From: a virus
Strand: one strand, 5' to 3'
Length of the DNA stretch: 44,702 bases
Virus record (IMG/VR): IMGVR_UViG_3300034066_001483
Coordinates: 1-44,702 of that record
Positions 726 to 22,550 of the stretch are shown one piece after another (the first letter of the stretch is position 1; each line of letters begins with the position of its first letter). Below the pieces are notes generated by a model. The model did no database searches. It saw only the letters and a list, made by a program, of their open reading frames with translations, and had not been told where the DNA came from. A program made the translations under genes and the position numbers.

Positions 726-752
726 GGTCAGTTTTACGTCATGACCAGGACG
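726..752 (-). promoter_or_regulatory. H-type pseudoknot leader element (copy 1)
   Basis: On the transcript: CGTC (752-749), then stem-2 strand GGTCA (746-742), then GACG (740-737) pairing with CGTC, then loop TAAAAC, then TGACC (730-726) pairing with GGTCA. Stem 2 differs in sequence from the other copies yet still pairs. It lies 18 nt after the stop of the upstream gene and 19 nt before the ATG of the 37-residue peptide. Confidence 0.65.
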
Positions 753-770
753 GCTCAACCATAAGCCTGA

Positions 771-1157
771 TCAGTCTACCAGGTTTTCAGCAATGCCGTT
801 GAGACCCTTGGTGGTGACTTTGACCAGCTCAGCAAGGTAGTCAGCAAGCGCTTCGACCTTGGCGTTGACGGATTGGATCTCAGCTAGTAACTCTTCCCTG
901 GAAGGATAGATACCTAGTAGATCAGTATCCTTGAGAGCCTCGGGGTTGTTGCTCTTTTGGTACCGCCGACAATCATCGTTAGTTGCGTAAACAGTCTCTT
1001 GATACATGTCAAGAACTGTTTTGAAATCAACACTACCAGCACCTTCGGCGCTAATGATGTTGCAGGTTTTCAAATAAAGCTGGGCAGCAAAACGAATGTT
1101 GTTTTCAAAGAACTCCTCGTACTGTTCAGACGAAAGTCCGTAGGTGTCAATCGACAT
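771..1157 (-). CDS. hypothetical protein
   Basis: 128 residues from the ATG at 1157 (MSIDTYGLSSEQYEEFFENN), which overlaps the stop of the upstream gene by 11 bp; an in-frame ATG at 1184 would add nine residues and a longer overlap, so the later start is preferred. The protein is acidic and mostly helical, ending with a heptad-like helix (REELLAEIQSVNAKVEALAD) and a hydrophobic tail (YLAELVKVTTKGLNGIAENL). The C-terminal coiled coil suggests oligomerisation. I do not recognise a family. It belongs to a tightly packed group with overlapping ends (1147-2526), which argues for a common transcript. Confidence 0.75.
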   Translation of the reverse strand: MSIDTYGLSSEQYEEFFENNIRFAAQLYLKTCNIISAEGAGSVDFKTVLDMYQETVYATNDDCRRYQKSNNPEALKDTDLLGIYPSREELLAEIQSVNAKVEALADYLAELVKVTTKGLNGIAENLVD

Positions 1158-1353
1158 AGCAATCACAAGCTTCTCGGAGTGCATTAATCATAAAGGTTTC
1201 TTGGCCTTCTGGACCTAGATCGGTCCACCATTGGAGATCAGGATCGTTCTCATCCCAAGTGATATGGATGGTCATGGATCCATCATCTTCATCAATGCAT
1301 TCAATGTGCAGCTTGTTTATCGAGTTCGGATTCAACAAGGCCCACGAGGACAT
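1147..1353 (-). CDS. hypothetical acidic protein (WDENDPDL motif)
   Basis: The C-terminal 50 residues form a compact acidic module: HIECIDEDDGSMTIHITWDE, then NDPDLQWWTDLGPEGQETF and a final helix (INALREACDCYVD). Beta strand, 'WDEnDPdL' turn, helix is a pattern I have seen in small phage proteins, without a known role. The start is uncertain: ATG 1353 overlaps the upstream gene by 53 bp, ATG 1275 would leave only the core of about 42 residues, and ATG 1362 or 1392 are also open. The end overlaps the next gene by 11 bp, so translational coupling is likely. Confidence 0.6.
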   Translation of the reverse strand: MSSWALLNPNSINKLHIECIDEDDGSMTIHITWDENDPDLQWWTDLGPEGQETFMINALREACDCYVD

Positions 1354-1594
1354 TTTCTGCATAGGTTTCACAATCAGTTCTGATCTCCGCACCTAGTTTA
1401 ACAAGACCCCAGTAAGTGTCTTCATCAATCTCAAGGTGCAATGCGTACTTGCCGTTGGATAACATCATTTGTTTTGTAAAAGGTTTGTTGGCTAACTCTG
1501 TTGCGTACTTGCGTAGATCAGAGTTAATCGTAAGTATTGTACTGGGACATTGAGTACCCAAGTAAACGGTGCCATCATTCATCTGAAATGTCAT
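1301..1594 (-). CDS. hypothetical protein
   Basis: 97 residues starting MTFQMNDGTVYLGTQCPSTI at the ATG at 1594, which shares ATGA with the stop of the 311-residue gene upstream. That four-base overlap decides the start over an in-frame ATG 30 codons earlier. The sequence alternates short strands and helices (LTINSDLRKYATELANKPFT, then MMLSNGKYALHLEIDEDTYW) with no catalytic motif that I recognise. It is probably translated by reinitiation after the SWIM-like gene. Confidence 0.7.
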   Translation of the reverse strand: MTFQMNDGTVYLGTQCPSTILTINSDLRKYATELANKPFTKQMMLSNGKYALHLEIDEDTYWGLVKLGAEIRTDCETYAENVLVGLVESELDKQAAH

Positions 1595-2526
1595 TGTTTC
1601 TTGATTGCAGATTTGAGTTGGGGCAATGCAGTACCAGGGAATGGGACATAGGATGCATCCATCATATTGAAGAACAAATCCCATGCATCATGCTGCGTGA
1701 AGATCTCCTTTGGTTTGTAGGTACGCCAATGACTGAGCGGAGCTTGTGCACCTGAGTTTGTATACAACAGTACAAAGCGTCCATCACTGATGTGGTCAGC
1801 CGGTGGGGCGTACCACCAACTAACACACTTCTCAGGTGTGCCACTGGGGCTAGCATTACGTGCTTCGGTACGCTTGCACAGCAGCTCGCGGTACTTGTTG
1901 AACCAAGTCAGGTGGATGCACCAGGGTTTGAATCCTTGGATCTCGGACGCAAAGTCAGATACGTTGCTGAGCTGACGCTGATACGACCCACACGAACACC
2001 AAGGTTCACCCATGACAGGCTCGGAGTCGTCAGCTTCCATGTCGCCGTCAATGTCAATGGGCCGATTCGGAAGCCGCAATCCATCTGGCGCAACCAAATG
2101 TCCAATATCCGTTTGATCGGACTGGAGGAGGTGGAGGACTTTGTTGGTGTCTGATACATGTATAAATTTGTCCACCCAATGCGCTTGAAGTTTTGCATGG
2201 GAGCTCAGGTGTCCGAGTGCGTGCGAGTAGTTCCAGCCCTTAAAAAGAATGTAAGCATTGTTGTGCCATACACTAGGGCCACGATAATTGGGACCAAGAT
2301 AGGAAAAGAAATCTTTAAGACGGTGGGTGTAGTTGTTAAAGGAAGTCTTGATTAGTTCCCTGTTGTAAGCTTGCTCGCTACCATCGCGACGCACCACAAG
2401 ACAATCATCGCCTCGCAAATAGATGCCACCAATGTCGGTGTCATCAAAGTCTTGAAAGGCACGCGAAAGATTTGTGCGTGTATAGATTGCAGCTTGCGCT
2501 GCATTAAGCTCAACTTGTGTTTGCAT
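1591..2526 (-). CDS. SWIM-like zinc-binding protein
   Basis: 311 residues. The central part has a Cys-x-Cys followed after about 28 residues by Cys-x-His (WCSCGSYQRQLSN, then PWCIHLTW), which fits the CxCx(n)CxH signature of SWIM zinc fingers, a domain that usually binds DNA or protein partners. The N-terminal half carries strands and aromatic residues (HALGHLSSHAKLQAHWVDKF) of unknown fold; the C-terminus has WWYAPPADHISDGRFVLLYT. The leader is the AC-rich type (CAACTCAATTCAAATCAA) directly before the ATG at 2526, without a Shine-Dalgarno sequence. It heads a group of four overlapping genes down to 771. The zinc ligands are visible in the sequence; the SWIM assignment is by pattern only. Confidence 0.7.
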   Translation of the reverse strand: MQTQVELNAAQAAIYTRTNLSRAFQDFDDTDIGGIYLRGDDCLVVRRDGSEQAYNRELIKTSFNNYTHRLKDFFSYLGPNYRGPSVWHNNAYILFKGWNYSHALGHLSSHAKLQAHWVDKFIHVSDTNKVLHLLQSDQTDIGHLVAPDGLRLPNRPIDIDGDMEADDSEPVMGEPWCSCGSYQRQLSNVSDFASEIQGFKPWCIHLTWFNKYRELLCKRTEARNASPSGTPEKCVSWWYAPPADHISDGRFVLLYTNSGAQAPLSHWRTYKPKEIFTQHDAWDLFFNMMDASYVPFPGTALPQLKSAIKKQ

Positions 2527-2562
2527 TTGATTTGAATTGAGTTGGTGTGTTGTACCAGGTGG

Positions 2563-2751
2563 TTACCCCCTCCAGTACTTGGCTTGCCCTTGGTCAATCA
2601 AAGATTGGATGCGAGCACGCTTGGCCATGCGGTACGTTGCCACTATAGCAGCCGCCCAGGAGACTGGGTTAGGCAGGAGGATGGCAGCAGCGGCTGTCAC
2701 CAATGCCGTTTGAGCACCGACGGTAAGAGCAGCTTTGTTCTCTGGTTTCAT
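2563..2751 (-). CDS. small Ala-rich membrane protein
   Basis: 62 residues from ATG 2751 (MKPENKAALTVGAQTALVTA), with the leader TTCAACAC typical of this arm. Two hydrophobic stretches (about residues 8-27 and 30-45) are separated by a Pro-Asn-Pro turn, followed by a basic tail (RMAKRARI). This suggests a hairpin inserted in the membrane with a cytoplasmic basic end, a topology seen in small holins, although no further evidence supports a lysis role. An ATG six codons upstream is possible but lacks the leader. Confidence 0.6.
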   Translation of the reverse strand: MKPENKAALTVGAQTALVTAAAAILLPNPVSWAAAIVATYRMAKRARIQSLIDQGQAKYWRG

Positions 2752-2801
2752 GTGTTGAATCCCTAACACAAACGAAAGGTTTAATTAAGTTTACGTTGTA
2801 G

Positions 2802-2809
2802 TTATAATA
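2802..2809 (+). promoter_or_regulatory. TTATAATA promoter-like box
   Basis: A -10-like TTATAATA on the plus strand, 20 nt before the ATG at 2830. The same octamer (TTATAATA or TTAAAATA) precedes many virion genes after 23 kb, so this lone plus-strand gene may follow the late programme. Transcription would begin near 2815, leaving a very short untranslated leader. Confidence 0.6.
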
Positions 2810-2829
2810 CTTTGAAACAATTGAATCCC

Positions 2830-3051
2830 ATGTTGCAATTTGAAATGGGTCCAGAAGAAGCCTTCTGGCAAGAGAAGATGATACGTTCCATTAACGAATG
2901 CAGTTCAATGAGTGAGCTAAAAGAAATGGCGACCTTACTAACGAAGATCGCCACGATGCGTCAAGTTGCAATTAAAGGATTAGTAAAGGATGCAATGGAC
3001 TTGATGAGTAATCAAGTTGACCATGACATCCTGAACCGTCTCAAAGACTAA
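2830..3051 (+). CDS. hypothetical protein, lone plus-strand gene in the early arm
   Basis: 73 residues from ATG 2830 (MLQFEMGPEEAFWQEKMIRS). A TTG at 2812 is in frame but lies upstream of the start site predicted from the TTATAATA box, so ATG is chosen. The protein is almost wholly helical, with Met- and charge-rich heptads (SELKEMATLLTKIATMRQVA, IKGLVKDAMDLMSNQVD). It is encoded against the direction of all neighbours and ends 11 bp inside the 3' end of the convergent DUF5895-like gene. No family is recognised; the late-type promoter box suggests a virion or assembly role, which is inference. Confidence 0.7.
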   Translation: MLQFEMGPEEAFWQEKMIRSINECSSMSELKEMATLLTKIATMRQVAIKGLVKDAMDLMSNQVDHDILNRLKD

Positions 3052-4057
3052 GATCTTCTCCGGTTAGTTCATTGCGTGCAGGCAATGCTTTCACGTCAAC
3101 TGCATCTGTGATGCGTGAGACGGGAAGAATCTCAACCCCAGCTTTGATTCCATAAGCACCACCAAGACGCTGCGCATCTTGCCGAGAATGTTGATTGATG
3201 TAATCATTGAACATCTCTTGGTACTTCCAAGTTGATTCACGGTCTTCATCGGGAATCGAAAGACGACCCAATGACGCAACCGCTTCCTCTTGGGAACTGT
3301 AATCAGGAATGTCAAAGGATTCAATGGCGCAGATCTCTACGTTGTTAGCGCCACGCATCTCGTTGGCAAGGACGGGAGTAAACACCGTGGTGGCGTAAAA
3401 CTTCTCGTTGAATGCCAGCGGTACCTCGGAGTCCAGTGCTTTGCTCAGGCACTTAGACATTTCCTTTTCGTACAGCTTGACCTTGTCGCTGACATCGGTA
3501 CCATTCAGACCCTTGAGTGTGAGCACCATGGGGATCTTATGAGCACGCTTGTTGTCCTGGGTCAGGATGTACACCAGGTACTTTGTACGTACACTGTACT
3601 TACGCTTGTACATCTCGCCCTTGCTGTTGGCAAGGTCGGATGCAATCTTGTCGTTTTCAAACATGGCTTTGACCTCTGGATCTTCAAAGGTGCCAATCGT
3701 TTGTCTCATCCCTGTGGTTTCCTCAACCATGAGGGGAGAACGTAAAAGGATTTGAACTCGAGGCTCAACAAAATTGAGTCCTTCTTCAATTGAAGTGTTG
3801 GGAGCCATACCAAAAGTTTGCTTGTAGTTCCAGATAACTGAATCTTTAGCAAACTGATCTTCAGTGGCACTCCATCCACAAGTGTCCAGATCTGACTTCC
3901 GCACGAACCAACCTCGTGTCTTGGACTTGTTGAGAGGTTGAATTGTGACGAGGTTTTGGTAGCCTGAAACAAACTCTTTAGCTTGGAAAAGTTTAAAAGA
4001 ATCAAGTCCCCTGGATGTAAGCACAGAAGTTTTCTTGGTAGTCATGGAAGCAGTCAT
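3041..4057 (-). CDS. DUF5895-like protein, possible replication/recombination factor
   Basis: 338 residues from ATG 4057 (MTASMTTKKTSVLTSRGLDS); ATG 4045 is the alternative, and longer frames would run into the pseudoknot leader. The N-terminal half reads RGWFVRKSDLDTCGWSATED, then EPRVQILLRSPLMVEE, strands in the style of the cyanobacterial DUF5895 family (a 'GWF/GLFI' segment followed by 'apRllv...Pl'). The second half has YSVRTKYLVYILTQDNKRAH, LTLKGLNGTDV and acidic ends. The function of DUF5895 is unknown. The position directly after SSB and polymerase, and a shared pseudoknot leader with SSB, suggest work on single-stranded or replicating DNA; this is inference. Family assignment is tentative. 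Confidence 0.65.
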   Translation of the reverse strand: MTASMTTKKTSVLTSRGLDSFKLFQAKEFVSGYQNLVTIQPLNKSKTRGWFVRKSDLDTCGWSATEDQFAKDSVIWNYKQTFGMAPNTSIEEGLNFVEPRVQILLRSPLMVEETTGMRQTIGTFEDPEVKAMFENDKIASDLANSKGEMYKRKYSVRTKYLVYILTQDNKRAHKIPMVLTLKGLNGTDVSDKVKLYEKEMSKCLSKALDSEVPLAFNEKFYATTVFTPVLANEMRGANNVEICAIESFDIPDYSSQEEAVASLGRLSIPDEDRESTWKYQEMFNDYINQHSRQDAQRLGGAYGIKAGVEILPVSRITDAVDVKALPARNELTGEDLSL

Positions 4058-4078
4058 GGTTGTTTCGTAGTCAGGAGT

Positions 4079-4105
4079 GAGCAGTTTAACGTCATGCTCA
4101 GGACG
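4079..4105 (-). promoter_or_regulatory. H-type pseudoknot leader element (copy 2)
   Basis: Transcript order: CGTC (4105-4102), GAGCA (4099-4095), GACG (4093-4090), loop TTAAAC, TGCTC (4083-4079). Stem 1 is CGTC/GACG, stem 2 is GAGCA/TGCTC. It lies 5 nt after the stop of the upstream gene and 21 nt before ATG 4057 of the DUF5895-like gene. Confidence 0.7.
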
Positions 4106-4110
4106 GTCCA

Positions 4111-4585: not shown

Positions 4586-5386
4586 TCAGAACGGAATGAA
4601 TTCAGGAGTAGGCTCAGGAGCTGGACCGTACTGACCAGGGAGATCAGGCAGGCCTTGGCTCCAGCAATCTTCGGCAGTCTTGCCGCCCCACAGTGTAGCA
4701 CTGTTATCGGAGGAAGCAACCGTTGTCTGGGACGCAACGGGTTTTTGATCTCCAGTGCCAGCCTTGGGTGCCAAGGTCATCTGCACAAGTTGGATCTTGG
4801 TCAGTGTCCGGCGTTGTTGTGTTTCTTTATCAGTCCATGCATCGGTAACAAGACGGCCACGAATGGTAAGTCCAGTTCCTTTCCGTGTGAAGTTGACCAT
4901 CAACTCAGCGTTATTTAACTTGTCATCCTTGCTATTAATTGCATAGAAGTTGAACAAGTCTCCTTGGTTCCGACCAGTATTAACTGAGATGGTTTGATTG
5001 GCAATCATCAAACCATCTGGTGTTGTTTTGAAAGCACGGGCATCTTCTTGATCAATGTCTTTGATGCAACGACCAGTAAGAATCACATCGTTAAAGATCG
5101 GAAACGAATCATTAACAACTGCAATAACACCGCCGTGCAGTGAGTATGCCTTGGCATCAATGTCGTAACGGATCTTTGAACCGTGTACATACAGACGAGC
5201 ACCACGATCAAGGGTCCGGAATTTCTCAGCAGCCTTGCCGTAAACATGAAGGGCAAGAGATGTTGCAGATTTATTTTTTCCTACAGGAGGAAGCATTACC
5301 TCTGCAACATAGTTGCTTGACGTGGCAGAAGTATAAACTTCGCGAGGTGTGTCGTTGAGTTGAGCGCAAACTGTAACAAAGTTCAT
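4586..5386 (-). CDS. ssb: single-stranded DNA-binding protein, two OB-like domains
   Basis: 266 residues. Residues 1-95 look like an OB fold (MNFVTVCAQLNDTPREVYTS, SLALHVYGKAAEKF, LYVHGSKIRYD), and residues about 97-205 like a second one (FNDVILTGRCIKDI, LFNFYAI, LTIRGRLVTDAWTDKET). The 60-residue tail is Pro/Ser-rich and finishes EPTPEFIPF, comparable with the acidic DxxPF tip by which bacterial SSBs recruit partner proteins. It would coat single-stranded DNA during replication. It lies directly after DNA polymerase and is preceded by a pseudoknot leader; the T4 SSB gene (gene 32) is autoregulated through a leader pseudoknot, a suggestive parallel. An SSB-like identity is well supported by fold pattern and tail, not by a search. 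Confidence 0.75.
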   Translation of the reverse strand: MNFVTVCAQLNDTPREVYTSATSSNYVAEVMLPPVGKNKSATSLALHVYGKAAEKFRTLDRGARLYVHGSKIRYDIDAKAYSLHGGVIAVVNDSFPIFNDVILTGRCIKDIDQEDARAFKTTPDGLMIANQTISVNTGRNQGDLFNFYAINSKDDKLNNAELMVNFTRKGTGLTIRGRLVTDAWTDKETQQRRTLTKIQLVQMTLAPKAGTGDQKPVASQTTVASSDNSATLWGGKTAEDCWSQGLPDLPGQYGPAPEPTPEFIPF

Positions 5387-5405: not shown

Positions 5406-5433
5406 TAAGTAGTTTAGCGTCATGCTTAGGACG
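5406..5433 (-). promoter_or_regulatory. H-type pseudoknot leader element (copy 3), SSB leader
   Basis: Transcript order: CGTC (5433-5430), TAAGCA (5428-5423), GACG (5421-5418), loop CTAAAC, TACTTA (5411-5406). Stem 2 pairs TAAG with CTTA and A with T around one C/A mismatch. It lies 6 nt after the polymerase stop and 19 nt before the SSB start codon. Confidence 0.6.
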
Positions 5434-7521: not shown

Positions 7522-8280
7522 CTACCTTTGTGACTTACCGTAACCTACGAACTTACCTTCTTTCTTCCGTTGCGTTAAGGCTTTCATGGCATCAGATCCA
7601 GCACGTTGCGAACCATGCACCAAGAGTGCAAACGGCTTGTCACCAAGGCAATGGCTATCGTCGTGATCGATCTCTAGCCCACGCTCTTGCGCTTCCTCTT
7701 CTGTGTAGACCACATAAGCAATGCGTTGAAACACCTCGGGGTACTTGGGGATCAGGTAATCGAGTGTCCCACCTTGCGACGCAGTAAGATAGAAGTTAGA
7801 TGGGATGATGTCCTTGAGGTTCAACCACATGCCAAGCGACTTGGTAAACGCATAGAACTTTTGATGAGGACGACTTGCTGCGACCATGAACCAAGCCCGC
7901 ATGTACTGCTCAGTCCAAAAGTCACCTGCTTCATGGACACGAACAAGATCTTTCTCTGGTTGAACCATAAGTGAAAGATCAATCAGGTCACGAATCAACA
8001 TGCCCTGATCACCACCCATATACATAACTTCACGCAGCAGATCCCAGTTGTGCCAACGAGCTTCACGTACTGTTGGCCTAGTCTCTGCCATGGCAGCAAA
8101 GCAACGATACTCATCTGCTTCTGTGCCAGTGAACTGAGGTAGATCCATGATTTTGCCGGTAGCTCGATCAGCCATGGTCTTACACACACCAGCGTGTGGA
8201 CATGCATAGCCCGCTGGGATGTTGAAGATCAGACGGTTCTTAAGCTTGCCGTTACCTGTGGAGAACTTGAGGAGTTTCAT
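7522..8280 (-). CDS. GP88-family phage protein
   Basis: 252 residues. The N-terminus LLKFSTGNGKLKNRLIFNIP followed by AGYACPHAGVCKTM, the segment VRVHEAGDFWTEQYMRAWF and later KFYAFTKSLGMWLNL match the pattern of mycobacteriophage gene product 88 and relatives ('...lPAg.tCP.a..C', 'vRihdsGDFfs.eYl.aW', 'FYaYTK'). Biochemical function is unknown; the conserved Cys and the HEAGDF motif suggest metal binding. The ATG at 8280 is preceded by CAACTCAACTCAACACC and, further up, by a pseudoknot. It is a single full-length copy between small ORFs. Confidence 0.75.
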   Translation of the reverse strand: MKLLKFSTGNGKLKNRLIFNIPAGYACPHAGVCKTMADRATGKIMDLPQFTGTEADEYRCFAAMAETRPTVREARWHNWDLLREVMYMGGDQGMLIRDLIDLSLMVQPEKDLVRVHEAGDFWTEQYMRAWFMVAASRPHQKFYAFTKSLGMWLNLKDIIPSNFYLTASQGGTLDYLIPKYPEVFQRIAYVVYTEEEAQERGLEIDHDDSHCLGDKPFALLVHGSQRAGSDAMKALTQRKKEGKFVGYGKSQR

Positions 8281-8315: not shown

Positions 8316-8343
8316 TGAGTAGTTTTAGGACGTGCTCAGGTCC
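8316..8343 (-). promoter_or_regulatory. H-type pseudoknot leader element (copy 4, covarying stem 1)
   Basis: Transcript order: GGAC (8343-8340), TGAGCA (8338-8333), GTCC (8331-8328), loop TAAAAC, TACTCA (8321-8316). Stem 1 is GGAC/GTCC here instead of CGTC/GACG: both strands changed and pairing is kept. It lies 35 nt before the GP88 start. Confidence 0.7.
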
Positions 8344-12079: not shown

Positions 12080-12165
12080 TGGTAGGAGCGACAGGACTTG
12101 CACCTGCACGGCCAAAGGCCAACGCATTTTAAGTGCGTCATGTTTACTAATTACATCACGCTCCC
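12080..12165 (-). tRNA. tRNA-Leu, anticodon UAA
   Basis: 86 nt with the CCA encoded. Acceptor GGGAGCG pairs with CGCTCCT (first pair G-T); discriminator A, then CCA. D stem ATG/CAT; anticodon stem ACGCA/TGCGT around loop CTTAAAA, so the anticodon is UAA; long variable arm (GGCC/GGCC), as expected for leucine; T arm GCAGG-TGCAAGT-CCTGT. The T loop has G where Psi55 is normally U. The 5' end overlaps the last 10 bp of the upstream coding gene, including its stop codon, and the next ATG comes 18 nt after the CCA. Confidence 0.93.
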
Positions 12166-12462: not shown

Positions 12463-14193
12463 TCAGCTCTTAGAGCTTAGCTCATCGTTGCGAGATTGCA
12501 AGGCCAGCTTGAATGCATTGGAGTACTTCTCCTTCTGGTCTTCGTCCAATCGCTGGTTGCCAACTCCAGCAATCTGCTTGACATTCATAACACCCATGGA
12601 TACATCCAGTTGGATAGTGAAGGTTGGCTTGCCATCAATCATGCAGAGCACAATGAAGTGCTTACGTTTCTTGATGTCCTCTGCATACTGGGACGCAGAT
12701 CCAACACAGTTACGGACAGCTTGTCCCCATTGCGCTAGCTGATGAGTGTCAATGGGTTGAAGGAATGTCCAATCACTGTCACCCATGCTGACCTTGACAG
12801 GTGTGGGGAATAAATCCTGGTGCAGTGATTCCTTCTTGTTAGCTATCTTCCATGCTTCTGCTTGCACGTAGTCATGGAAGTCAGGCATGCGCCAACGCTT
12901 AGGTGCTTCGATAGTCTTGCCTTCATGCAATACACGTCCAAGCATTGAGAATGTATCATTCATTTCGTACCATGAATGAACAACATAGTCAAAGTCTAAA
13001 TACGTAGAAACAAGTCGCCTGTCCTGATTACATTGCTCAACATATTTACGCATCATATTAAAGAATGATGCAACAGGCATGTTCTGTTGTAGCCAGACAA
13101 GCAAAGCATCACTGGTACGCAGTTGGTTAAGATTAGTTGTACGTAGTTCTTCAAAGTAAGTACGATAGTAATCAAGTGGGCAATCAGGCCAGATCCGATT
13201 GATGAAGTAGATAGCGTTAGTTGTCTGCTCGAATTCTTTGTAGCCATACTTGATTGACTTGCGTTGCTCGTTATCTGGATCTTGATATGCAACAGTGCTG
13301 CGATCAAGCATCTGTTGTAAGCGTGCTTTGATAGCCGGTGTTGTAATGATGTGATCAATACTATTGATCGTTAGATAAGTTGATGATGATGTGTATTCAA
13401 CTTTATGTTTAGCTGACCATGCGTGAGCCAAACCAACAATGGAATCAACACTGAGTTGAATGTTGTTTCTATCTGCAATACCGCTTGTAAGTGCAGTAGG
13501 AAACTCAATTGCATCAAGGATGTTAGTGCACTTCATGCGATCAAACATTGAACGGCTGTCATTCCATGTAGGAATAGTCTCCATCAATGCTTGCTCAAAC
13601 TGGTTAAGCGTATTATTCATCTCACGTGTCTTTTGGTAATACGCACCAACACCCATGGCACGCCAGTTGCGATCGTCTTTACCATTGATAATATCTTGTT
13701 TGGTCACTAGCATTGTACGTACAAACAATTGCGAGCCACGACCAATGGTGTGCTCAGTGCAATTATCTTTACTATCCCAGATATGCTTAGGTAATGTCTT
13801 AGCTGCTGATGCAGTGTTCTTGAATGCGTATGCATAGCCATAAACATATTGATCTTCTTGTCCCTTGGGAGGTAGCCATGCTGCATACCAGCATTGTTCA
13901 AAGTGATACAAGATGGCAATGGTTATAACACGTGCTTCTGGTGTAGCAACATCGACCACCTTGGTAAATCGGCGATGACGATTAGCTACAACTGCTGTAT
14001 TGATCTGTTCAATTGCATCATCTTGATAGCTGCCACGCACAACATCCTCTGGGATGAGATGAGGAATCTTACCCAGTGGATACTTAGCTTTCTTGGTTGT
14101 GGACTTAGGTGCTTGTTCCTTGGCCAAAGCTTTGAGCTTTGGATCGTAGGCAAGCAGCTCTTGTTGGAGATTGGAAGGCAGTTCGAAATGCAT
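12463..14193 (-). CDS. PcfJ-like protein
   Basis: 576 residues (MHFELPSNLQQELLAYDPKL). The C-terminal 110 residues hold the PcfJ signature: WGQAVRNCVGSASQYAEDI, KHFIVLCMIDGKPTFTIQLD and MNVKQIAGVGNQRLD, corresponding to 'l..cvgsy', 'R..gkp..TlEl' and 'i.Q..G..N'. PcfJ was first named on an enterococcal conjugative plasmid, and related proteins occur in phages; no activity is established. The N-terminal 400 residues (helical, Trp/Tyr-rich) are unassigned, with a basic start (PKSTTKKAKYPLGKIPHLIP). The leader has a pseudoknot and CTCAACTCAACTCC. The largest small-gene-arm protein after the polymerase. Confidence 0.7.
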   Translation of the reverse strand: MHFELPSNLQQELLAYDPKLKALAKEQAPKSTTKKAKYPLGKIPHLIPEDVVRGSYQDDAIEQINTAVVANRHRRFTKVVDVATPEARVITIAILYHFEQCWYAAWLPPKGQEDQYVYGYAYAFKNTASAAKTLPKHIWDSKDNCTEHTIGRGSQLFVRTMLVTKQDIINGKDDRNWRAMGVGAYYQKTREMNNTLNQFEQALMETIPTWNDSRSMFDRMKCTNILDAIEFPTALTSGIADRNNIQLSVDSIVGLAHAWSAKHKVEYTSSSTYLTINSIDHIITTPAIKARLQQMLDRSTVAYQDPDNEQRKSIKYGYKEFEQTTNAIYFINRIWPDCPLDYYRTYFEELRTTNLNQLRTSDALLVWLQQNMPVASFFNMMRKYVEQCNQDRRLVSTYLDFDYVVHSWYEMNDTFSMLGRVLHEGKTIEAPKRWRMPDFHDYVQAEAWKIANKKESLHQDLFPTPVKVSMGDSDWTFLQPIDTHQLAQWGQAVRNCVGSASQYAEDIKKRKHFIVLCMIDGKPTFTIQLDVSMGVMNVKQIAGVGNQRLDEDQKEKYSNAFKLALQSRNDELSSKS

Positions 14194-14219
14194 GATGGAG
14201 TTGGAGTTGAGTTGAGTAT

Positions 14220-14246
14220 AGGCAGTTTAACGTCATGCCCAGGACG
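14220..14246 (-). promoter_or_regulatory. H-type pseudoknot leader element (copy 5)
   Basis: Transcript order: CGTC (14246-14243), GGGCA (14240-14236), GACG (14234-14231), loop TTAAAC, TGCCT (14224-14220). Stem 2 is GGGCA/TGCCT with one G-T pair, a third distinct sequence in that stem. 26 nt before the PcfJ-like start. Confidence 0.68.
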
Positions 14247-14940: not shown

Positions 14941-14974
14941 GACCTGGGACTTACACCGTAAGGATGCCCAGATC
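14941..14974 (-). promoter_or_regulatory. Class-II intergenic RNA element (copy 1)
   Basis: Outer stem GATCTGGG/CCCAGGTC (8 bp, one T-G), internal loop CAT on the 5' side and TGTAAGT on the 3' side, inner CC-TTAC-GG. Starts 2 nt after the upstream stop; 28 nt before ATG 14912. Confidence 0.65.
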
Positions 14975-18806: not shown

Positions 18807-18834
18807 GGTTTGAGTTGAGTTGATTAAGGTTTGT

Positions 18835-18873
18835 ACTAGGACTTACACCACACATTGTGTGTGGATGCCTAGT
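18835..18873 (-). promoter_or_regulatory. Class-II intergenic RNA element (copy 5, covarying)
   Basis: Outer stem ACTAGG/CCTAGT, internal loop CAT x TGTAAGT, inner hairpin CCACACA-CAA-TGTGTGG. 28 nt before ATG 18806; 4 nt after the upstream stop. Confidence 0.68.
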
Positions 18874-18877
18874 GTTG

Positions 18878-19252
18878 TTAACGAGTGAGACGATTAGTGA
18901 AGTTATATCTATAGCCGCTGTCGTATGCAGGTTCTTTATACGTTACGTTGTTAGCAATCTTGCAGATCGCTGACTCACCAATGTGATAGTCCTTAGCAAT
19001 AGATAGTGCAGTCTCACCTTGTGCTTTGCGCATACGAATATCTTCTACTTGGTTATCACTAAGGAAATTACTGCGACGACCACGTTTGATTGGGTCTTTC
19101 TCGATCGGAGGACGACGCCTCACTCGACGTAATACAATTGTCATGTACCCAGGATTACAGTTGACAATGCTGCCGATTGAATCGTAGTCGTACCCCTGGC
19201 ACCTGAGTTGCCAGATCCGATCTTCCTTGACGATAGATACTCGATTGCGCAT
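18878..19252 (-). CDS. double helix-turn-helix protein
   Basis: 124 residues. Two HTH-like segments: IWQLRCQGYDYDSIGSIVNC followed by NPGYMTIVLRRV at residues about 13-45, and FLSDNQVEDIRMRKAQGETA, LSIAKDYHIGESAICKIAN at about 62-105. The second resembles the C-terminal module of the Zn-ribbon protein at 11023 (FLTDNDVLMIRHL). A highly basic linker (RRVRRRPPIEKDPIKRGRRS) joins them. Likely a sequence-specific DNA-binding protein or regulator. Confidence 0.7.
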   Translation of the reverse strand: MRNRVSIVKEDRIWQLRCQGYDYDSIGSIVNCNPGYMTIVLRRVRRRPPIEKDPIKRGRRSNFLSDNQVEDIRMRKAQGETALSIAKDYHIGESAICKIANNVTYKEPAYDSGYRYNFTNRLTR

Positions 19253-19277
19253 GGGGATTGATGAGTTGGTTGGGTGA

Positions 19278-19310
19278 CTGGGACTTATATCCTCATGGAG
19301 GAAGGCCCAG
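19278..19310 (-). promoter_or_regulatory. Class-II intergenic RNA element (copy 6, divergent)
   Basis: CTGGG/CCCAG outer stem, 3' internal-loop strand TATAAGT instead of TGTAAGT, inner hairpin TCCTC-CAT-GAGGA. 25 nt before ATG 19252. Confidence 0.55.
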
Positions 19311-19321
19311 GTTATGGCTAG

Positions 19322-19528
19322 CTAGTAGCCCATGACGTACAGCTTGGAGGCGTTGATGCCCTGTGGGCCAAGCGACGTGTACTTACTGGCTAGTGCTGCG
19401 ATGGTGCTAATGCTAGCCGCAAGTATGAGTGCAGCCACCACAGCTTTCAATAGATGGTTGGACTTATGAGTCTCACCATAAGAATCCATCTGGATGAAAC
19501 CGTTATGCATGCGATAGATCGTCTTCAT
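19322..19528 (-). CDS. small single-TM membrane protein
   Basis: 68 residues from ATG 19528 (MKTIYRMHNGFIQMDSYGET), 1 bp after the upstream stop; the longer frame overlaps the upstream gene. One TM segment (about residues 27-48: LLKAVVAALILAASISTIAA) follows a His/Lys-rich stretch, and the C-terminus (SLGPQGINASKLYVMGY) is probably outside. No family recognised. Confidence 0.6.
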   Translation of the reverse strand: MKTIYRMHNGFIQMDSYGETHKSNHLLKAVVAALILAASISTIAALASKYTSLGPQGINASKLYVMGY

Positions 19529-19529
19529 G

Positions 19530-19805
19530 TCAAACGGTCTCCAGGATATAGCGACAGCAGATGTAGTCTTCATCTGGTAGCTGAACAGGGTTACCTTGTT
19601 CGTGCGAACCGTAGGTATCTACCCATCGCTCGTCAATTAGTACATCGAGACACTCAAGGAATGCGTCAATGTATTCACGAGCCTGAGACGTTGTTGCTAC
19701 CCAATGGAGATAGACGACGTTGTCATCGAACTCCAGGTGATAGTGATTGATCTTGAACACTGCAAGTGCAGAGTCAAGCTCTTCTTTGCCAACTAGTAGT
19801 GCCAT
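19530..19805 (-). CDS. hypothetical acidic protein
   Basis: 91 residues (MALLVGKEELDSALAVFKIN). Alternating strands and helices: HYHLEFDDNVVYLHWVATT, then a helix (REYIDAFLECLDVLIDERWV), and a C-terminal DEDYICCRYILETV. No family recognised. A CTCAACA-loop hairpin ends 22 nt before the start. Confidence 0.65.
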   Translation of the reverse strand: MALLVGKEELDSALAVFKINHYHLEFDDNVVYLHWVATTSQAREYIDAFLECLDVLIDERWVDTYGSHEQGNPVQLPDEDYICCRYILETV

Positions 19806-19827
19806 GTTAAATGCAATGGAATGGAAT

Positions 19828-19866
19828 CCAGGATGTTGAGTCCTGGTGGGAAGGGCCGAAGCCCCT
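19828..19866 (-). promoter_or_regulatory. two leader hairpins, UUCG and CTCAACA loops
   Basis: First AGGGGC-TTCG-GCCCTT (19866-19851), a very stable UUCG hairpin; then CCAGGA-CTCAACA-TCCTGG (19846-19828). The second shares its loop and inner pairs with the hairpin at 20844-20862, while the outer pair covaries. 22 nt before ATG 19805. Confidence 0.6.
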
Positions 19867-19877
19867 CCAATCAGGAG

Positions 19878-20117
19878 TCAATCCTCATGCCTGCGTTCCC
19901 AACGAAGCAGATCCCTGTTGAGATCTACTTTGCGTTGGAGTACCACGCAGAATGGGACTAGGTCTTGGAACTGGGCTAACCCATCTTGCCATTGGAAGAA
20001 GAGATCGAGAGCAGCTTGACGCTGTTCTTCAATCTCTGCATCAATGACAGGGGAGTCTCTGCGAGCCAATAAACGTGCGTCTTGGGTCAGCAGTTGTTCA
20101 ACAGCTTTAGGAGTCAT
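19878..20117 (-). CDS. hypothetical helical protein
   Basis: 79 residues (MTPKAVEQLLTQDARLLARR). Mostly helical and charged (DAEIEEQRQAALDLFFQWQD, LQRKVDLNRDLLRWERRHED). Heptad spacing of Leu suggests a coiled coil. No family recognised. Confidence 0.6.
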   Translation of the reverse strand: MTPKAVEQLLTQDARLLARRDSPVIDAEIEEQRQAALDLFFQWQDGLAQFQDLVPFCVVLQRKVDLNRDLLRWERRHED

Positions 20118-20145
20118 GGTCTCCAGTTGGTGTCGTGTGGTGTGT

Positions 20146-20202
20146 TGCAGGTGTGACCTGCAGAAAACTCACCGGCAATACATGTGTACTACCGGGAGAG
20201 TT
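20146..20202 (-). promoter_or_regulatory. leader hairpin pair
   Basis: An outer stem AACTC/GAGTT encloses CCGG/CCGG and TACA/TGTA pairing (20202-20166), followed by a perfect hairpin TGCAGGT-CAC-ACCTGCA (20162-20146) 28 nt before ATG 20117. Same two-hairpin plan as at 20844-20899. Confidence 0.5.
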
Positions 20203-20211
20203 ATGTGCAGA

Positions 20212-20409
20212 TTACAGGTACTTACTGTGGATGCAGTAGTACGTGTCCCCTAGGAATCCTTGTGTACGTACAAGGTTGTGGTTTGGTCTTGCGTTGCAGT
20301 GTTCTTCGTAGTGTTGGTTGAGTAGCTTCTGTACTCCAGTAGATAGGAGTAAGCCACTACCAATGCCAATGACAAGAGCAACACAGGAGTCTTTGAATGA
20401 GTTGGACAT
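20212..20409 (-). CDS. small single-TM membrane protein (GDTYYC motif)
   Basis: 65 residues (MSNSFKDSCVALVIGIGSGL). TM segment at about residues 8-28, then a soluble end: HYEEHCNARPNHNLVRTQGF, LGDTYYCIHSKYL. The ending 'vrtq.flGdtyYCi..ry' is one I recognise from small membrane proteins of other phages; two Cys could pair outside the membrane. Function unknown. Confidence 0.65.
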   Translation of the reverse strand: MSNSFKDSCVALVIGIGSGLLLSTGVQKLLNQHYEEHCNARPNHNLVRTQGFLGDTYYCIHSKYL

Positions 20410-20437
20410 AAGTTGTTAGTTGGATTTAGATGGTGTG

Positions 20438-20821
20438 TCAGAAGTCCAGGTAGTCTTCTTCCTCAGGTTGAGACGATGCATCAACAGCCTTAGGCCTTGG
20501 TGCTGCACCGATAGTGGCACGTACTCCTGTGAGTTTGATCTCAGGGTACTTGAGTGCCACAAGTTGACCATCCTTCTGGTAGTGCGTCTTGATAGTGCTG
20601 ATGCGTACACTCCACTGCGTGAGGATGAGTTGATGGCCTGCGACTAAGCTGCCCTTGTTAAATGCCGCAAGCAATCCATTGCTATTCGTAAACCGCAAGC
20701 GGCACGAACCGCCGAATGGATCGTTGACTGCAATACTTGCAGCCAGGAAAACACTATTGTCTTCCCTGGACTTGAGCACCTTGAGGTCGGTGACATAGCG
20801 AATGATGGTTGAGCTGAACAT
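20438..20821 (-). CDS. second SSB-like OB-fold protein with acidic tail
   Basis: 127 residues (MFSSTIIRYVTDLKVLKSRE). One beta-barrel-like domain: VFLAASIAVNDPFGGSCRLR, GSLVAGHQLILTQWSVRIST, VALKYPEIKLTGVRA (about residues 1-103), then a short linker and SQPEEEDYLDF, an acidic tip ending in Asp-Phe like SSB tails. It is shorter than, and unlike in sequence to, the SSB at 4586-5386. It may bind single-stranded nucleic acid; the assignment is by pattern only. Confidence 0.6.
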   Translation of the reverse strand: MFSSTIIRYVTDLKVLKSREDNSVFLAASIAVNDPFGGSCRLRFTNSNGLLAAFNKGSLVAGHQLILTQWSVRISTIKTHYQKDGQLVALKYPEIKLTGVRATIGAAPRPKAVDASSQPEEEDYLDF

Positions 20822-20843
20822 GAGAATACTGTGGTGTTGACAA

Positions 20844-20899
20844 GCAGGATGTTGAGTCCTGCAGTAAACCCACCGACGTAGTACTGATGTACTGGTGGG
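20844..20899 (-). promoter_or_regulatory. leader hairpin pair with CTCAACA loop
   Basis: CCCACC/GGTGGG encloses AGTAC-ATCA-GTACT (20899-20869); then GCAGGA-CTCAACA-TCCTGC (20862-20844), 22 nt before ATG 20821, the same spacing and loop as at 19828-19846. Confidence 0.58.
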
Positions 20900-20916
20900 A
20901 GGGCTTAGAGCAGGAA

Positions 20917-21150
20917 TCAGAATGCTACTGCATACATGATGTCTTGAAGCATGGTCATTGAGTAGTTGTAATACTCTCTCATCTCGTAGTAAAGCTCCTT
21001 GGTACCTGTCGGCATCCCTGACATGAATGTCAGGGAATCAAGGTCTTCCCACTCGCCATCTTTGATCTTCTGGAAGTGAAGCATAGAGCTGTCACCTCCA
21101 TTCCAGATGACGCGATGGAGATTATCAAACTCAGGCTTGTAGATCAACAT
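20917..21150 (-). CDS. hypothetical protein
   Basis: 77 residues from ATG 21150 (MLIYKPEFDNLHRVIWNGGD); the upstream extension merely translates the conserved leader hairpin. Basic/aromatic start, acidic middle (KIKDGEWEDLDSLTFMSGMP), then a Tyr/Met-rich helix (YYEMREYYNYSMTMLQDIMY). No family recognised. Confidence 0.6.
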   Translation of the reverse strand: MLIYKPEFDNLHRVIWNGGDSSMLHFQKIKDGEWEDLDSLTFMSGMPTGTKELYYEMREYYNYSMTMLQDIMYAVAF

Positions 21151-21166
21151 GGTGTTGTGTAGTAGA

Positions 21167-21211
21167 TGCCACGGGATTGTGGCAATAGTTGTGTGGGGCA
21201 TTCGATGCCCC
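21167..21211 (-). promoter_or_regulatory. T-arm-like hairpin plus TGCCAC leader hairpin (copy 1)
   Basis: GGGGC-ATCGAAT-GCCCC (21211-21195), a 7-nt loop of T-loop type, then ATTGCCAC-AATCCC-GTGGCA (stem 21184-21167), 16 nt before ATG 21150. No clear outer stem in this copy. Confidence 0.6.
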
Positions 21212-21224
21212 GGCTCACGGCTGG

Positions 21225-21419
21225 TCAGAAGACCATCACAACGTCGTCGGCCTCCATCATCTCCTGGAAGGACATGATCTGCACGTCATGCGTGCCTTGG
21301 ATGCCGTCGTTTAACTCGGGTGAGTTAAGTTGGAAGTCCATTTGTGCAGCTTCGATAAGTGCTTCTTCCCACTGGAAGGAGAAGCCGTGCTGCACGCCGT
21401 CAATCACGATGTAGTACAT
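21225..21419 (-). CDS. hypothetical acidic protein
   Basis: 64 residues from ATG 21419 (MYYIVIDGVQHGFSFQWEEA). An N-terminal beta-hairpin (YYIVIDGVQHGFSF), helix (WEEALIEAAQMDFQLN) and acidic Met-rich end (SFQEMMEADDVVMVF). AC leader CTCAACTCAACACC. The start MYYIVIDGVQHG resembles the start of the gene at 7247 (MAYIISTLVDGVPHA), perhaps a distant relative. Confidence 0.6.
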   Translation of the reverse strand: MYYIVIDGVQHGFSFQWEEALIEAAQMDFQLNSPELNDGIQGTHDVQIMSFQEMMEADDVVMVF

Positions 21420-21437
21420 GGTGTTGAGTTGAGTAGA

Positions 21438-21511
21438 TGCCACGGGATTGTGGCAATAACTGAGCAGGGGATTTGATCCCCCAGCATCACGCTCTACTTA
21501 CGTAGGCTCAG
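21438..21511 (-). promoter_or_regulatory. tRNA-like three-way junction plus TGCCAC hairpin (copy 2)
   Basis: Outer stem CTGAGC (21511-21506)/GCTCAG (21465-21460); inside, CTAC-GTAA-GTAG, AGC-GTGAT-GCT, and a T-arm-like GGGG-ATCAAAT-CCCC. Then TGCCAC/GTGGCA (21455-21438), 18 nt before ATG 21419. Confidence 0.65.
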
Positions 21512-21520
21512 CTAATAACT

Positions 21521-21703
21521 TCAGCCTCGACGGATCTGAAGGTTCCTGTCTGCTTTACAAGCAGCAGAAATCTGCTGAGGCGTTGCTGCCTCGCAGAAGT
21601 AATTCGGATCACCTCCGAAGAAATGATCCGTAACCAAAGTAACTTTGCCGTCGTTAGTACGACGGACAAAGAACAGGTTGTTCAGTTGCATGGATCTCTC
21701 CAT
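21521..21703 (-). CDS. hypothetical protein
   Basis: 60 residues from ATG 21703 (MERSMQLNNLFFVRRTNDGK); the Met at 21691 is an equally possible start. Strands LNNLFFVRRTNDGKVTLVTD, then FFGGDPNYFCEAATPQQISA and a basic end. No family recognised. Confidence 0.55.
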   Translation of the reverse strand: MERSMQLNNLFFVRRTNDGKVTLVTDHFFGGDPNYFCEAATPQQISAACKADRNLQIRRG

Positions 21704-21711
21704 GTGTGTGG

Positions 21712-21781
21712 TGCCCATCTCCACAGGGGGCAATAACTGGACCAGGGTTTGCACCTGGTCACCCGCTTAGACGGATCAGTT
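21712..21781 (-). promoter_or_regulatory. tRNA-like three-way junction plus hairpin (copy 3)
   Basis: Outer stem AACTG (21781-21777)/CAGTT (21739-21735); inside, CCG-TCTAAG-CGG and the T-arm-like GACCAGG-TGCAAAC-CCTGGTC. Then a changed hairpin TGCCC/GGGCA (21732-21712). The outer stem overlaps the stop codon of the upstream gene. Confidence 0.62.
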
Positions 21782-21958
21782 GGTTGGATAGTTGTTAGCT
21801 GCGCACCACGCAAGGTGGATGTCATGTGCCTCTACTGGCCACTCATGGTTGATGCATTGCTTTGCGGTCGCCTTATCCAACTGATGGATGGTGACCTGAG
21901 TACCAATGCCCATGATTGTGGCTGCGGCAATGACAATGGATGCGATGTGTTCGGTCAT
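21776..21958 (-). CDS. small membrane protein with CINHEWP motif
   Basis: 60 residues from ATG 21958 (MTEHIASIVIAAATIMGIGT). TM segment at about residues 5-24, then QLDKATAKQCINHEWPVEAH and DIHLAWCAANNYPTN. The pattern 'a..Cl.heWP..ah..H..WC..ngYp' recurs in small phage proteins, with two Cys that could pair. Function unknown. Confidence 0.65.
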   Translation of the reverse strand: MTEHIASIVIAAATIMGIGTQVTIHQLDKATAKQCINHEWPVEAHDIHLAWCAANNYPTN

Positions 21959-21975
21959 GGTTGGTGTGAAGTAAA

Positions 21976-22039
21976 TGCCACTGGATTGTGGCAATGCTGA
22001 TGGGAGGACTTGCACCTCCCTGTCCGCTTACGGATCAGC
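21976..22039 (-). promoter_or_regulatory. tRNA-like three-way junction plus TGCCAC hairpin (copy 4)
   Basis: Outer stem GCTGAT (22039-22034)/ATCAGC (22001-21996); inside, CCG-TAAG-CGG and GGGAGG-TGCAAGT-CCTCCC, whose loop is identical to the T loop of the tRNA-Leu in this window. Then TGCCAC/GTGGCA (21993-21976), 17 nt before ATG 21958. The stem includes the stop codon of the upstream gene. Confidence 0.68.
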
Positions 22040-22220
22040 GCCCGCTATAGGTAACGCGGGAGTTGTTGCGTTGGTTGTAACGGATGACGTCGCCTGTGAT
22101 GCGGTCGTTGTAACGGATGACGTCGCCAGTAATACGACGGTCGTTTGATTCGTGCCACTCTTGGGAAGCTGCCTGTGCGGCAGCAGAGAATGCACGTCCG
22201 AGGGATGTACGGAAACCCAT
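22035..22220 (-). CDS. small protein with duplicated 11-residue repeat
   Basis: 61 residues from ATG 22220 (MGFRTSLGRAFSAAAQAASQ). The second half contains RITGDVIRYND and RITGDVIRYNQ in tandem, encoded by a 33-bp DNA repeat with several synonymous changes. N-terminal helix is Ala-rich. No family recognised. Its stop lies in the outer stem of the next RNA element. Confidence 0.6.
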   Translation of the reverse strand: MGFRTSLGRAFSAAAQAASQEWHESNDRRITGDVIRYNDRITGDVIRYNQRNNSRVTYSGR

Positions 22221-22236
22221 GGTGTTAGGTAGTAGA

Positions 22237-22306
22237 TGCCACTGGATTGTGGCAATGACCAGAGCCAGGCATTGCACCTGGCTTGGGAGCTATGACTCAC
22301 CTGGTC
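22237..22306 (-). promoter_or_regulatory. tRNA-like three-way junction plus TGCCAC hairpin (copy 5)
   Basis: Outer stem GACCAG (22306-22301)/CTGGTC (22262-22257); inside, GAG-TCATAG-CTC and GCCAGG-TGCAATG-CCTGGC. Then TGCCAC/GTGGCA (22254-22237), 16 nt before ATG 22220. The outer stem ends just before the TGA of the upstream gene. Confidence 0.65.
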
Positions 22307-22482
22307 TGTAGTTGACGCACGAGCTTGCGCCCTGCGTCTAAGCTGAGGAGTGTGGAGCGATGCCACTCTCCTGGGCATTGCGCCTTGAGGATCATCTTCG
22401 TGACTCTCACGAGATTCTCCTCCTTGTTCACCTGGAACTTATAGACGGCTTCGTCTGTGGTCAGGGTGAAGTAGATGATCAT
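22297..22482 (-). CDS. hypothetical basic protein
   Basis: 61 residues from ATG 22482 (MIIYFTLTTDEAVYKFQVNK). Beta strands in the first half, a basic helix at the end (SLDAGRKLVRQLQTR). The longer frame to 22608 translates the pseudoknot leader and is rejected. It is the first gene of the long minus-strand series; the promoter must lie in 22550-22950. Confidence 0.55.
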   Translation of the reverse strand: MIIYFTLTTDEAVYKFQVNKEENLVRVTKMILKAQCPGEWHRSTLLSLDAGRKLVRQLQTR

Positions 22483-22525
22483 GATTGATCCTCTTGATCT
22501 GCGACTGACGTGCGCAGAAGTAACG

Positions 22526-22550
22526 GCTGCGTTTAACGTCCAGCTTGACG
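22526..22550 (-). promoter_or_regulatory. H-type pseudoknot leader element (copy 6)
   Basis: Transcript order: CGTC (22550-22547), GCTG (22544-22541), GACG (22540-22537), loop TTAAAC, CAGC (22529-22526). Stem 2 is GCTG/CAGC, again a new sequence. 43 nt before ATG 22482, at the head of the early gene series. Confidence 0.62.

Follow-up and report, generated by a model that had tools for sequence, protein, structure and literature searches.

The window analysed here, a 44,702-nt stretch of viral DNA (IMG/VR record IMGVR_UViG_3300034066_001483), carries a recurrent 28-nt H-type RNA pseudoknot of fixed geometry that lies in sense orientation at gene junctions, and beyond this single virus the element is also found in many phages unrelated to one another and in some bacterial genomes. 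The unit is composed of a 4-bp stem 1, a loop 1 consisting of C, a 6-bp stem 2, a one-base wedge and a last loop (loop 3) NNAAAC, with the consensus NNNC/GNNN for stem 1 and URRNCA/UGNYYA for stem 2. A strict descriptor scan recovered five copies on the minus strand of the window, compared with a mean of 0.0033 and a maximum of 1 in 300 dinucleotide shuffles, and one further minus-strand copy is a variant. A sequence-only reading had proposed a six-copy family with two interlocking stems; five copies and the interlocking hold, while stem 2 had been drawn one or two pairs short and the sixth copy (22550-22526) is the variant, which fails the strict descriptor.

Stem 1 is fully paired (4/4) in all five strict copies, and stem 2 is paired 6/6 in three of them and 5/6 in two, with one C.A mismatch each. 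Copy 1 (725..752; this and all following features are on the minus strand) has stem 1 CGTC/GACG, stem 2 TGGTCA/TGACCA (6/6) and loop 3 TAAAAC, and lies 5′ of a gene for a 37-aa predicted membrane peptide (593..706, start and end set by eye), a relative of which had no match in a Pfam search. Copy 2 (4078..4105; stem 2 TGAGCA/TGCTCA, 6/6) precedes the DUF5895 gene (3041..4057; PF19247, E value of 1.7e-11). Copy 3 (5406..5433; stem 2 TAAGCA/TACTTA, 5/6) lies between the PolA stop codon and the SSB gene (4586..5386; PF00436, E value of 2.1e-10), and in four close relatives its stem 2 reads TAAGTA/TACTTA and is paired 6/6. Copy 4 (8316..8343), with a compensated stem 1 GGAC/GTCC and stem 2 TGAGCA/TACTCA (5/6), is found 5′ of the GP88 gene (7522..8280; PF17338, E value of 2.4e-37), and copy 5 (14219..14246; stem 2 TGGGCA/TGCCTA, 6/6 including one G.U) 5′ of the PcfJ-like gene (12463..14193; PF14284, E value of 1.1e-7). 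These Pfam matches agree with the gene assignments proposed earlier, as does the location of the copies, each preceded by a stop codon and followed by the next leader: the distance from the upstream stop is 18, 5, 6, 15 and 38 nt for copies 1 to 5, and that to the ATG 18, 20, 19, 35 and 25 nt, respectively.

The variant copy (22526..22550; CGTC AA GCTG GACG TTAAACG CAGC), located 5′ of a small open reading frame (ORF) (22297..22482, start set by eye), shares stem 1 and AAAC with the others but has a two-base loop 1, a 4-bp stem 2 and no wedge. Among the 13 relatives searched, it is present in three near-identical ones (95-97%) and in one divergent relative, where it sits within the sole 45-nt stretch that aligns and a C-to-T change keeps the pair as G.U; of the remaining nine, eight did not match the region at all, and in one a weak match fell outside the element.

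In a scan without constraint on loop 1, run on S-EIV1, the window and the loci obtained through SSB homology, loop 1 was C in 64/66 elements; shuffles gave 0-3 matches, so that the two non-C cases and some others may be chance. With loop lengths (L1/L2/L3) of 1/1/6 there were 275 matches and none in the reversed control, and no other combination exceeded 11 matches (control 1), a comparison biased by the fact that most loci had been fetched with the 1/1/6 geometry. Pairing was examined in two IMG/VR scans, each of which left one strand or stem unconstrained, with pair counts controlled by shuffling and sliding. Among the matches listed, stem 1 paired in 93.4% of cells across 99 distinct elements and stem 2 in 91.3% across 71. 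Counted by element, again among the matches listed, stem 1 was 4/4 in 104, 3/4 in 28 and 2/4 in 1 of 133 elements, and stem 2 was 6/6 in 101, 5/6 in 29, 4/6 in 8 and 2/6 in 1 of 139. Two of the five covariation measures, the pairs changed on both sides and the number of further pair types, were not above shuffles. At the level of sequence, these data show both stems to be under compensatory selection.

The element was found in phages of cyanobacteria, Firmicutes, actinobacteria and Roseobacter-group bacteria, in crAss-like phages, in ssDNA phages and in bacterial genome assemblies, with several copies per phage. In ssDNA Microviridae, the annotated features seen were VP1, VP3, VP4 and VP5; in Lactobacillus and Staphylococcus phages the element lies 5′ of annotated scaffold genes, and in Roseobacter-group phages 3′ of ribonucleotide reductase. 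Copy numbers across collections are lower bounds. A protein scan gave 13 loci. The counts leave out near-duplicates, elements near locus ends and elements that fail the strict descriptor, and one of the spacing analyses also leaves out stops within the element, which the 233-element count below includes. Bacterial genomes yielded 118 pattern matches among those listed, and 52 genome elements were kept for the orientation analysis; plasmids gave 14 weak, mostly partial matches, and E. coli genomes, scanned for one variant, gave no match. Most elements are single; tandem copies, spaced 27 nt or about 78 nt apart, occur in loci L187, L223, L231, L294 and L342.

None of the 331 intergenic viral elements (321 distinct contexts, among the matches listed) is antisense to both neighbours, compared with 35-42% of random gap placements. 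In NatCom_6392, a short annotated hypothetical gene runs antisense over the element, and on the sense strand a 77-codon open frame stops 6 nt short of the element. Covariation cannot by itself tell DNA from RNA, and STAXI has been discussed in the light of DNA structure (PMC2864571); nevertheless, the sense orientation and the spacing to stop and start codons make an ssDNA or DNA cruciform element scarcely probable.

The distance to the upstream stop codon is short and sharp. For upstream ORFs of at least 60 aa (233 elements), the stop fell within the element in 3 cases, 0-4 nt away in 5 and 5-6 nt away in 85, compared with 438, 98 and 44, respectively, of 2033 random sense positions, and the 5-6 nt spacing is sharp in the clade of the window, in other viral sets and in the genome sets alike. 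The short spacing may partly reflect compact genomes. With a spacing of 5-6 nt, a ribosome whose A site holds the stop codon would have the fold at its mRNA entrance, where the fold could alter termination, recycling or coupling to the next cistron. Frameshift and readthrough pseudoknots use similar spacing, and the geometry of the MMTV frameshift pseudoknot resembles that of the element. We nevertheless consider a termination or reinitiation element unlikely: no clear fusion signal emerged, the frames past the stop closing after a median of 18 (frame 0, the longest), 5 (+1) and 13 (-1) codons (n=106; medians uncorrected for composition), and some copies have no ORF stop close upstream, as in prophage Lj771 (172 nt), in one Microviridae leader and in some copies that follow terminator-like hairpins, as judged by eye. 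Among the genome matches listed, 57/118 follow an ORF of about 20 aa whose frame often enters the fold, which breaks the rule that the element is not translated; a terminator-like hairpin lies within 72 nt of only 9/55 of the elements behind such ORFs.

On the downstream side, 77/192 elements have an ATG 19-22 nt from their 3′ edge and 16/192 at 0-17 nt, so that start codons are rarely closer than 18-19 nt. The 19-22 nt peak is largely the contribution of one clade; among viral cases outside the clade, 8/60 fall in this range. A fold docking on the platform of the 30S subunit near the mRNA exit, about 20 nt 5′ of the AUG, could enhance translation, and the 18-22 nt edge-to-ATG distance and AC-rich leaders of the clade would suit this, as would the position 5′ of scaffold genes, which are usually highly expressed. 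The loose ATG spacing outside the clade and the many copies with no ATG near make such an enhancer quite improbable. Outside the clade the element often resembles a 3′ element, and in some cases a tRNA follows immediately. The tRNA begins 2-13 nt 3′ of the element in 16/155 non-clade viral elements and 3 nt 3′ in 3/123 clade elements, while 14/600 control gaps had a tRNA within 60 nt downstream. The 220 nt upstream of the elements contained no tRNA in any case. For 80/155 non-clade viral elements, neither an ATG nor a tRNA lies within 60 nt, and their 3′ neighbour is unexplained.

Within the S-EIV1 cyanophage clade (15 members sampled: the window, S-EIV1 and 13 relatives, with several near-identical pairs among them), the element appears to have been fixed as the leader of some five genes. 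It precedes SSB in 12/15 members by the strict descriptor and in 15/15 by a relaxed one; strict elements precede the PcfJ-like gene in 12/14, GP88 in 9/15, DUF5895 in 8/15 and PolA in 0/15 members. Where the upstream genes change, SSB and GP88 keep the element. This constancy, the AC-rich leader, conserved junction bases that could serve as a contact site and the gene 32 precedent (PMC3014915) favour an operator on which a trans-acting RNA-binding protein, in the clade possibly the phage SSB, would nucleate before spreading through the unstructured leader and over the start codon. Against it, the same element occurs in Microviridae, in scaffold leaders, at tRNA junctions and in bacterial assemblies, which makes phage SSB an unlikely common partner, and in Arthrobacter phage Molivia a longer-loop element lies 3′ of the SSB gene, not 5′. 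We therefore regard the operator as rather unlikely. Of the regulon proposed earlier, a fixed gene set including SSB survives within the clade, where alone SSB binding may apply; SSB as a general mechanism is not supported.

The other role that had been proposed, a small-ligand riboswitch, fits poorly as a general function. The preQ1-I riboswitch has a compact H-type fold with an A-rich tail, and here the conserved C of loop 1, the AAAC of loop 3 and the junction pairs could make a pocket; tandem copies also occur. Yet the element differs from preQ1-I in its loop sizes, no association with metabolite genes was seen, and neither preQ1-I nor any other riboswitch family of Rfam matched over the elements in the window and the loci tested. 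Because the genes beside it are so unrelated and even include tRNAs, and with multiple copies per phage and a start codon that is not sequestered, the fold mostly lying at least 18 nt clear of it, a riboswitch is very improbable. Relatedness to the hammerhead or pistol ribozyme, considered by eye, was rejected: the variable stem 2 breaks a CUGA core, and no Rfam ribozyme matched in the window and the loci tested.

Stops rarely lie closer than 5 nt and starts rarely closer than 18-19 nt, and hence the fold could persist during both termination and initiation; the unrelated neighbours argue against a gene-specific ligand. Our preferred, though tentative, reading from this position is a junction barrier acting in cis, a folded boundary that would resist nucleases and insulate the adjoining cistrons. 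After intercistronic cleavage, for instance at a 3′ tRNA, the fold would shield the upstream message at its end; in leader position it would shield the 5′ end of the downstream one. The nuclease protection is what we infer from position alone. In the clade, the element tracks the downstream genes, which is unexpected for a pure 3′ protector. A broader form of the cis barrier is possible but doubtful: a universal RNA-end module of tailed and ssDNA phages and bacterial genomes, a ribosome-flush roadblock at cistron boundaries that would parallel, in prokaryotes, the nuclease-resistant RNAs known from eukaryotic viruses and that one cyanophage clade reuses as the common leader of replication-linked genes. 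Through the spacing to stop and start codons, ribosome footprints, mRNA processing and phage gene order can be connected in a testable way, and the 28-nt size makes the element easy to mutate and compensate.

Rfam searches gave no family over the elements in the window and in loci L187 (7300-7750), L294, L342 and L161, possibly because a model that omits pseudoknots retains little signal from only 28 nt, and no description in open-access PMC text was recognised as this element. The frameshift and readthrough pseudoknots of MMTV, BWYV and MuLV have short stems, a loop 1 of 1-2 bases, an A-rich last loop and a spacing of 5-9 nt to a ribosomal site. The element shares all these traits, its spacing mode of 5-6 nt falling in the same range, but its site is a stop codon at a gene junction, with no clear fusion-ORF signal found. 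The covariance model of STAXI (RF01728), of a kind not known to carry pseudoknot pairs, had no match in the window (E≤5, E≤10), in L187 7300-7750 (E≤10) or in L342, L294 and L161 (E≤3). STAXI consists of small tandem pseudoknots near SSB and other DNA-handling genes (PMC2864571). Small pseudoknots and proximity to SSB are shared, and of two or three pseudoknots in tandem the element shows some cases, most copies being single; compared by model and description, RF01728 is a 153-position tandem-repeat model listed under Enterobacteriales, whereas our element is a 28-nt unit. In T4, T2 and RB69, where the SSB gp32 autoregulates its own gene, an H-type pseudoknot likewise lies 5′ of the phage SSB gene (gene 32) and is followed by an unstructured leader; in T4 the pseudoknot is placed 67 nt upstream of the start, and an RNase E cut at -71 is close to it (PMC3014915). 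In contrast to gene 32, the element of the window lies 18-35 nt from the AUG, forms a 28-nt unit with a one-base wedge and occurs in several copies per genome; rather than belonging to the SSB gene, the element, known here from its sequence, accompanies many unrelated genes in phages and bacteria that share no SSB.

The window, a 44.7-kb virus record related to Synechococcus phage S-EIV1, carries five minus-strand copies of a 28-nt H-type pseudoknot with one exact architecture: a 4-bp stem 1, an L1 consisting of a single C, a 6-bp stem 2 (with one mismatch in two of the five), a one-base wedge and a loop 3 of NNAAAC. A strict descriptor fixing this geometry matched five times in the window, compared with a mean of 0.0033 over 300 dinucleotide shuffles. 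The sequence-only reading had proposed a six-copy family; five copies bear it out, while the sixth, at 22550-22526, is only a shorter variant, found in 4 of 13 relatives searched. L1 was C in 64 of 66 elements in a scan of homology-fetched loci that did not require C; the constancy of AAAC is in large part a product of the search patterns.

The window also contains other repeats. A second leader structure (GGGCA.. hairpin ..GTGTAAGTCC plus an outer stem) precedes small genes near 14956, 16158, 18107, 18403 and 18848 (minus strand), and its outer stem seems, by eye, to covary (CTAGG/CCTAG, CATGGG/CCCATG, CCTGGG/CCCAGG). The motif TTGCCACAATCC(A/C)GTGGCA occurs four times (21185, 21456, 21994 and 22255, minus strand), each copy closely following a T-arm-like hairpin (e.g., GGGAGGTGCAAGTCCTCCC) and lying ahead of a small gene; these copies look like tRNA-like intergenic modules. 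A tRNA-Leu (taa) gene lies among small genes at 12080-12165 (minus strand).

An IMG/VR scan used CGTCCTNNNCATGACGNNAAAC, a pattern that puts no constraint on any of stem 2's 3′ strand, and recovered at least 118 stretches. Among the matches listed, 139 elements paired at 6/6 stem 2 positions in 101 cases, 5/6 in 29, 4/6 in 8 and 2/6 in 1. Conversely, the pattern of a second scan specified stem 2 and let stem 1 vary freely, and the 133 elements among its listed matches paired at 4/4 positions in 104 cases, 3/4 in 28 and 2/4 in 1. In stem 1, 93.4% of cells were paired (set A2, 99 distinct 28-nt rows), with 157 double-change cells versus 51.8 in shuffles; in stem 2, 91.3% were paired (set A3, 71 distinct 28-nt rows), with 69 versus 24.4. 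Sliding the partner strand by 1-3 columns lowered pairing to 13-49%. The paired stems of the sequence-only reading covary: on three of five measures (percentage paired, double-change cells and covariation score) both stems exceeded all 500 shuffles, which are no strict significance test because the rows are related sequences. The count of pairs changed on both sides did not exceed all shuffles (18/500 equally high for stem 1, 490/500 for stem 2), nor did that of further pair types (473/500 and 125/500).

The element is not confined to the window's relatives. A genome scan with GTCCTNNNCATGACNNNAAACTG, a pattern in which two of the six stem 2 pairs are specified, gave at least 116 stretches; those listed came from assemblies titled Omnitrophota, Deltaproteobacteria, Firmicutes, Saccharibacteria and others, and stem 2 paired at five or more of six positions in 99 of the 116 listed. 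Of 193 genomes belonging to the same phylum as an Omnitrophota genome, another pattern matched 25, at one site each, versus one match for the reversed control. Seventeen named phage records, a minority of the BLAST matches, were picked out and inspected. The strict descriptor was satisfied by 7/7 in the first set (a Microviridae, Moorella MTATph1, Christensenellales NatCom_6392, Mycobacterium Labelle, Paracoccus ParKuw1, cyanophage S-RIM4 and Nostoc NMeng1) and by 6/10 in the second, where StB12, crAss cr7_1, Molivia and a second Microviridae had either a mismatch or a loop longer than the descriptor allows. Some scanned loci held tandem pseudoknots, either abutting at 27-nt spacing (L342, 4947/4974; L294, 6094/6121) or about 78 nt apart (L223, 3168/3246; L231, 5442/5519; L187, 7403/7481, with a third, degenerate copy by eye).

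Orientation was assessed with a simple ORF-based gene caller, which errs on small genes. Few elements fell within a called gene (10/174 and 1/137 viral elements among the matches listed in two scans, and 2/33 in relatives fetched by SSB homology), and none of the remaining 331 (321 distinct contexts) had both neighbors antisense, compared with 35-42% of random gap placements; the figure for genome elements was 1/50. This sense orientation argues for RNA rather than DNA.

Spacing to neighboring ORFs was also examined. Among 325 nonredundant elements, 233 had an ORF of 60 aa or more that ended nearby; its stop lay inside the element in 3 cases, 0-4 nt upstream in 5, 5-6 nt in 85 and 7-12 nt in 56, versus 438, 98, 44 and 120 for 2,033 random sense positions. 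The 5-nt edge is present in the window's clade (the S-EIV1-like cyanophages), other viral loci and genomes. Downstream, an ATG edge begins at 18-19 nt (77/192 at 19-22 nt, 16/192 at 0-17 nt); the 19-22 nt peak is weak outside the clade (8/60 viral cases). Given the ribosome's dimensions, a fold 5 nt away would stay clear of a ribosome positioned on the stop codon, and one at 19 nt would leave room for an initiating ribosome. Of the 118 listed genome matches, 57 depart from this spacing: they follow an ORF of about 20 aa, and its frame commonly terminates within the fold. An action on translation termination, to which the stop edge might point, is unlikely. A 30S-docking site, which the ATG peak might suggest, is less likely still.

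That tiny conserved ORF (M..RFM.PRVAHC.EGC..SWA-stop; loci L253-L368, e.g., L342 near 4947 and L253, minus strand) precedes or enters the pseudoknot in Omnitrophota, Deltaproteobacteria, Peptococcaceae and others. By eye, a Shine-Dalgarno-like sequence often lies ahead of its start, and the frame is sometimes ended early by a stop with the RNA element still kept. None of five typed examples matched NCBIfam, and none of three matched Pfam above cutoff.

Within the clade, the element stays with its downstream gene. In counts that include the window itself and near-identical pairs, it precedes SSB in 12/15 cases (15/15 with a relaxed descriptor), the PcfJ-like gene in 12/14, GP88 in 9/15 and DUF5895 in 8/15; one further gene scored 6/14, solely through a membrane peptide lying between gene and element, and the other genes tallied scored 0. 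Upstream genes vary, with PolA in 11 of 21 SSB cases, and with one gene in 4/15 GP88 cases, two others once each and no recognized gene in 9. SSB may be an operator-binding protein for the element, in this clade only. In S-EIV1-like loci, the gene most often following the element (a cluster of 37 of 194 downstream ORFs) encodes a conserved membrane-like peptide of about 37 aa (MFE.LLA.LLPVMKDLLWAAAG; 593-706, minus strand, in the window).

Outside the clade, the element often looks like a 3′ element: neither an ATG nor a tRNA lay within 60 nt downstream of 80/155 non-clade elements. A tRNA started 2-13 nt downstream of 16/155, and 3 nt downstream of 3/123 clade elements; none was found within 220 nt upstream in 326 entries (one element being in two groups). 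Annotated scaffold genes follow at 55-62 nt in two Lactobacillus phages and at about 140 nt in Staphylococcus phage StB12. In Lentibacter ICBM1 and Celeribacter P12053L the element separates ribonucleotide reductase from glutaredoxin, and in SIO1 it sits behind ribonucleotide reductase. In two Clostridia assemblies (L273 and L348) it lies upstream of an rplK-like gene (ribosomal protein L11, by eye); L273 has a NusG-like ORF upstream, and its element, whose stem 2 spells a −35-like TTGACA, may be a chance match. A riboswitch, the other proposal of the sequence-only reading, is very improbable for an element so indifferent to gene identity across phages. That indifference, the near-exclusion from translated sequence and the occurrence in 5′ as well as 3′ positions fit, tentatively, a cis-acting folded boundary protecting or insulating transcript ends, in which the fold would shield RNA from nucleases.

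Rfam placed no family over the elements in the window, part of L187 or ten further loci. By description, the nearest known RNA is STAXI, pseudoknot repeats near SSB genes (PMC2864571); its Rfam model had no match here, though the two may be related. By working principle, the nearest is the T4 gene 32 leader (PMC3014915).
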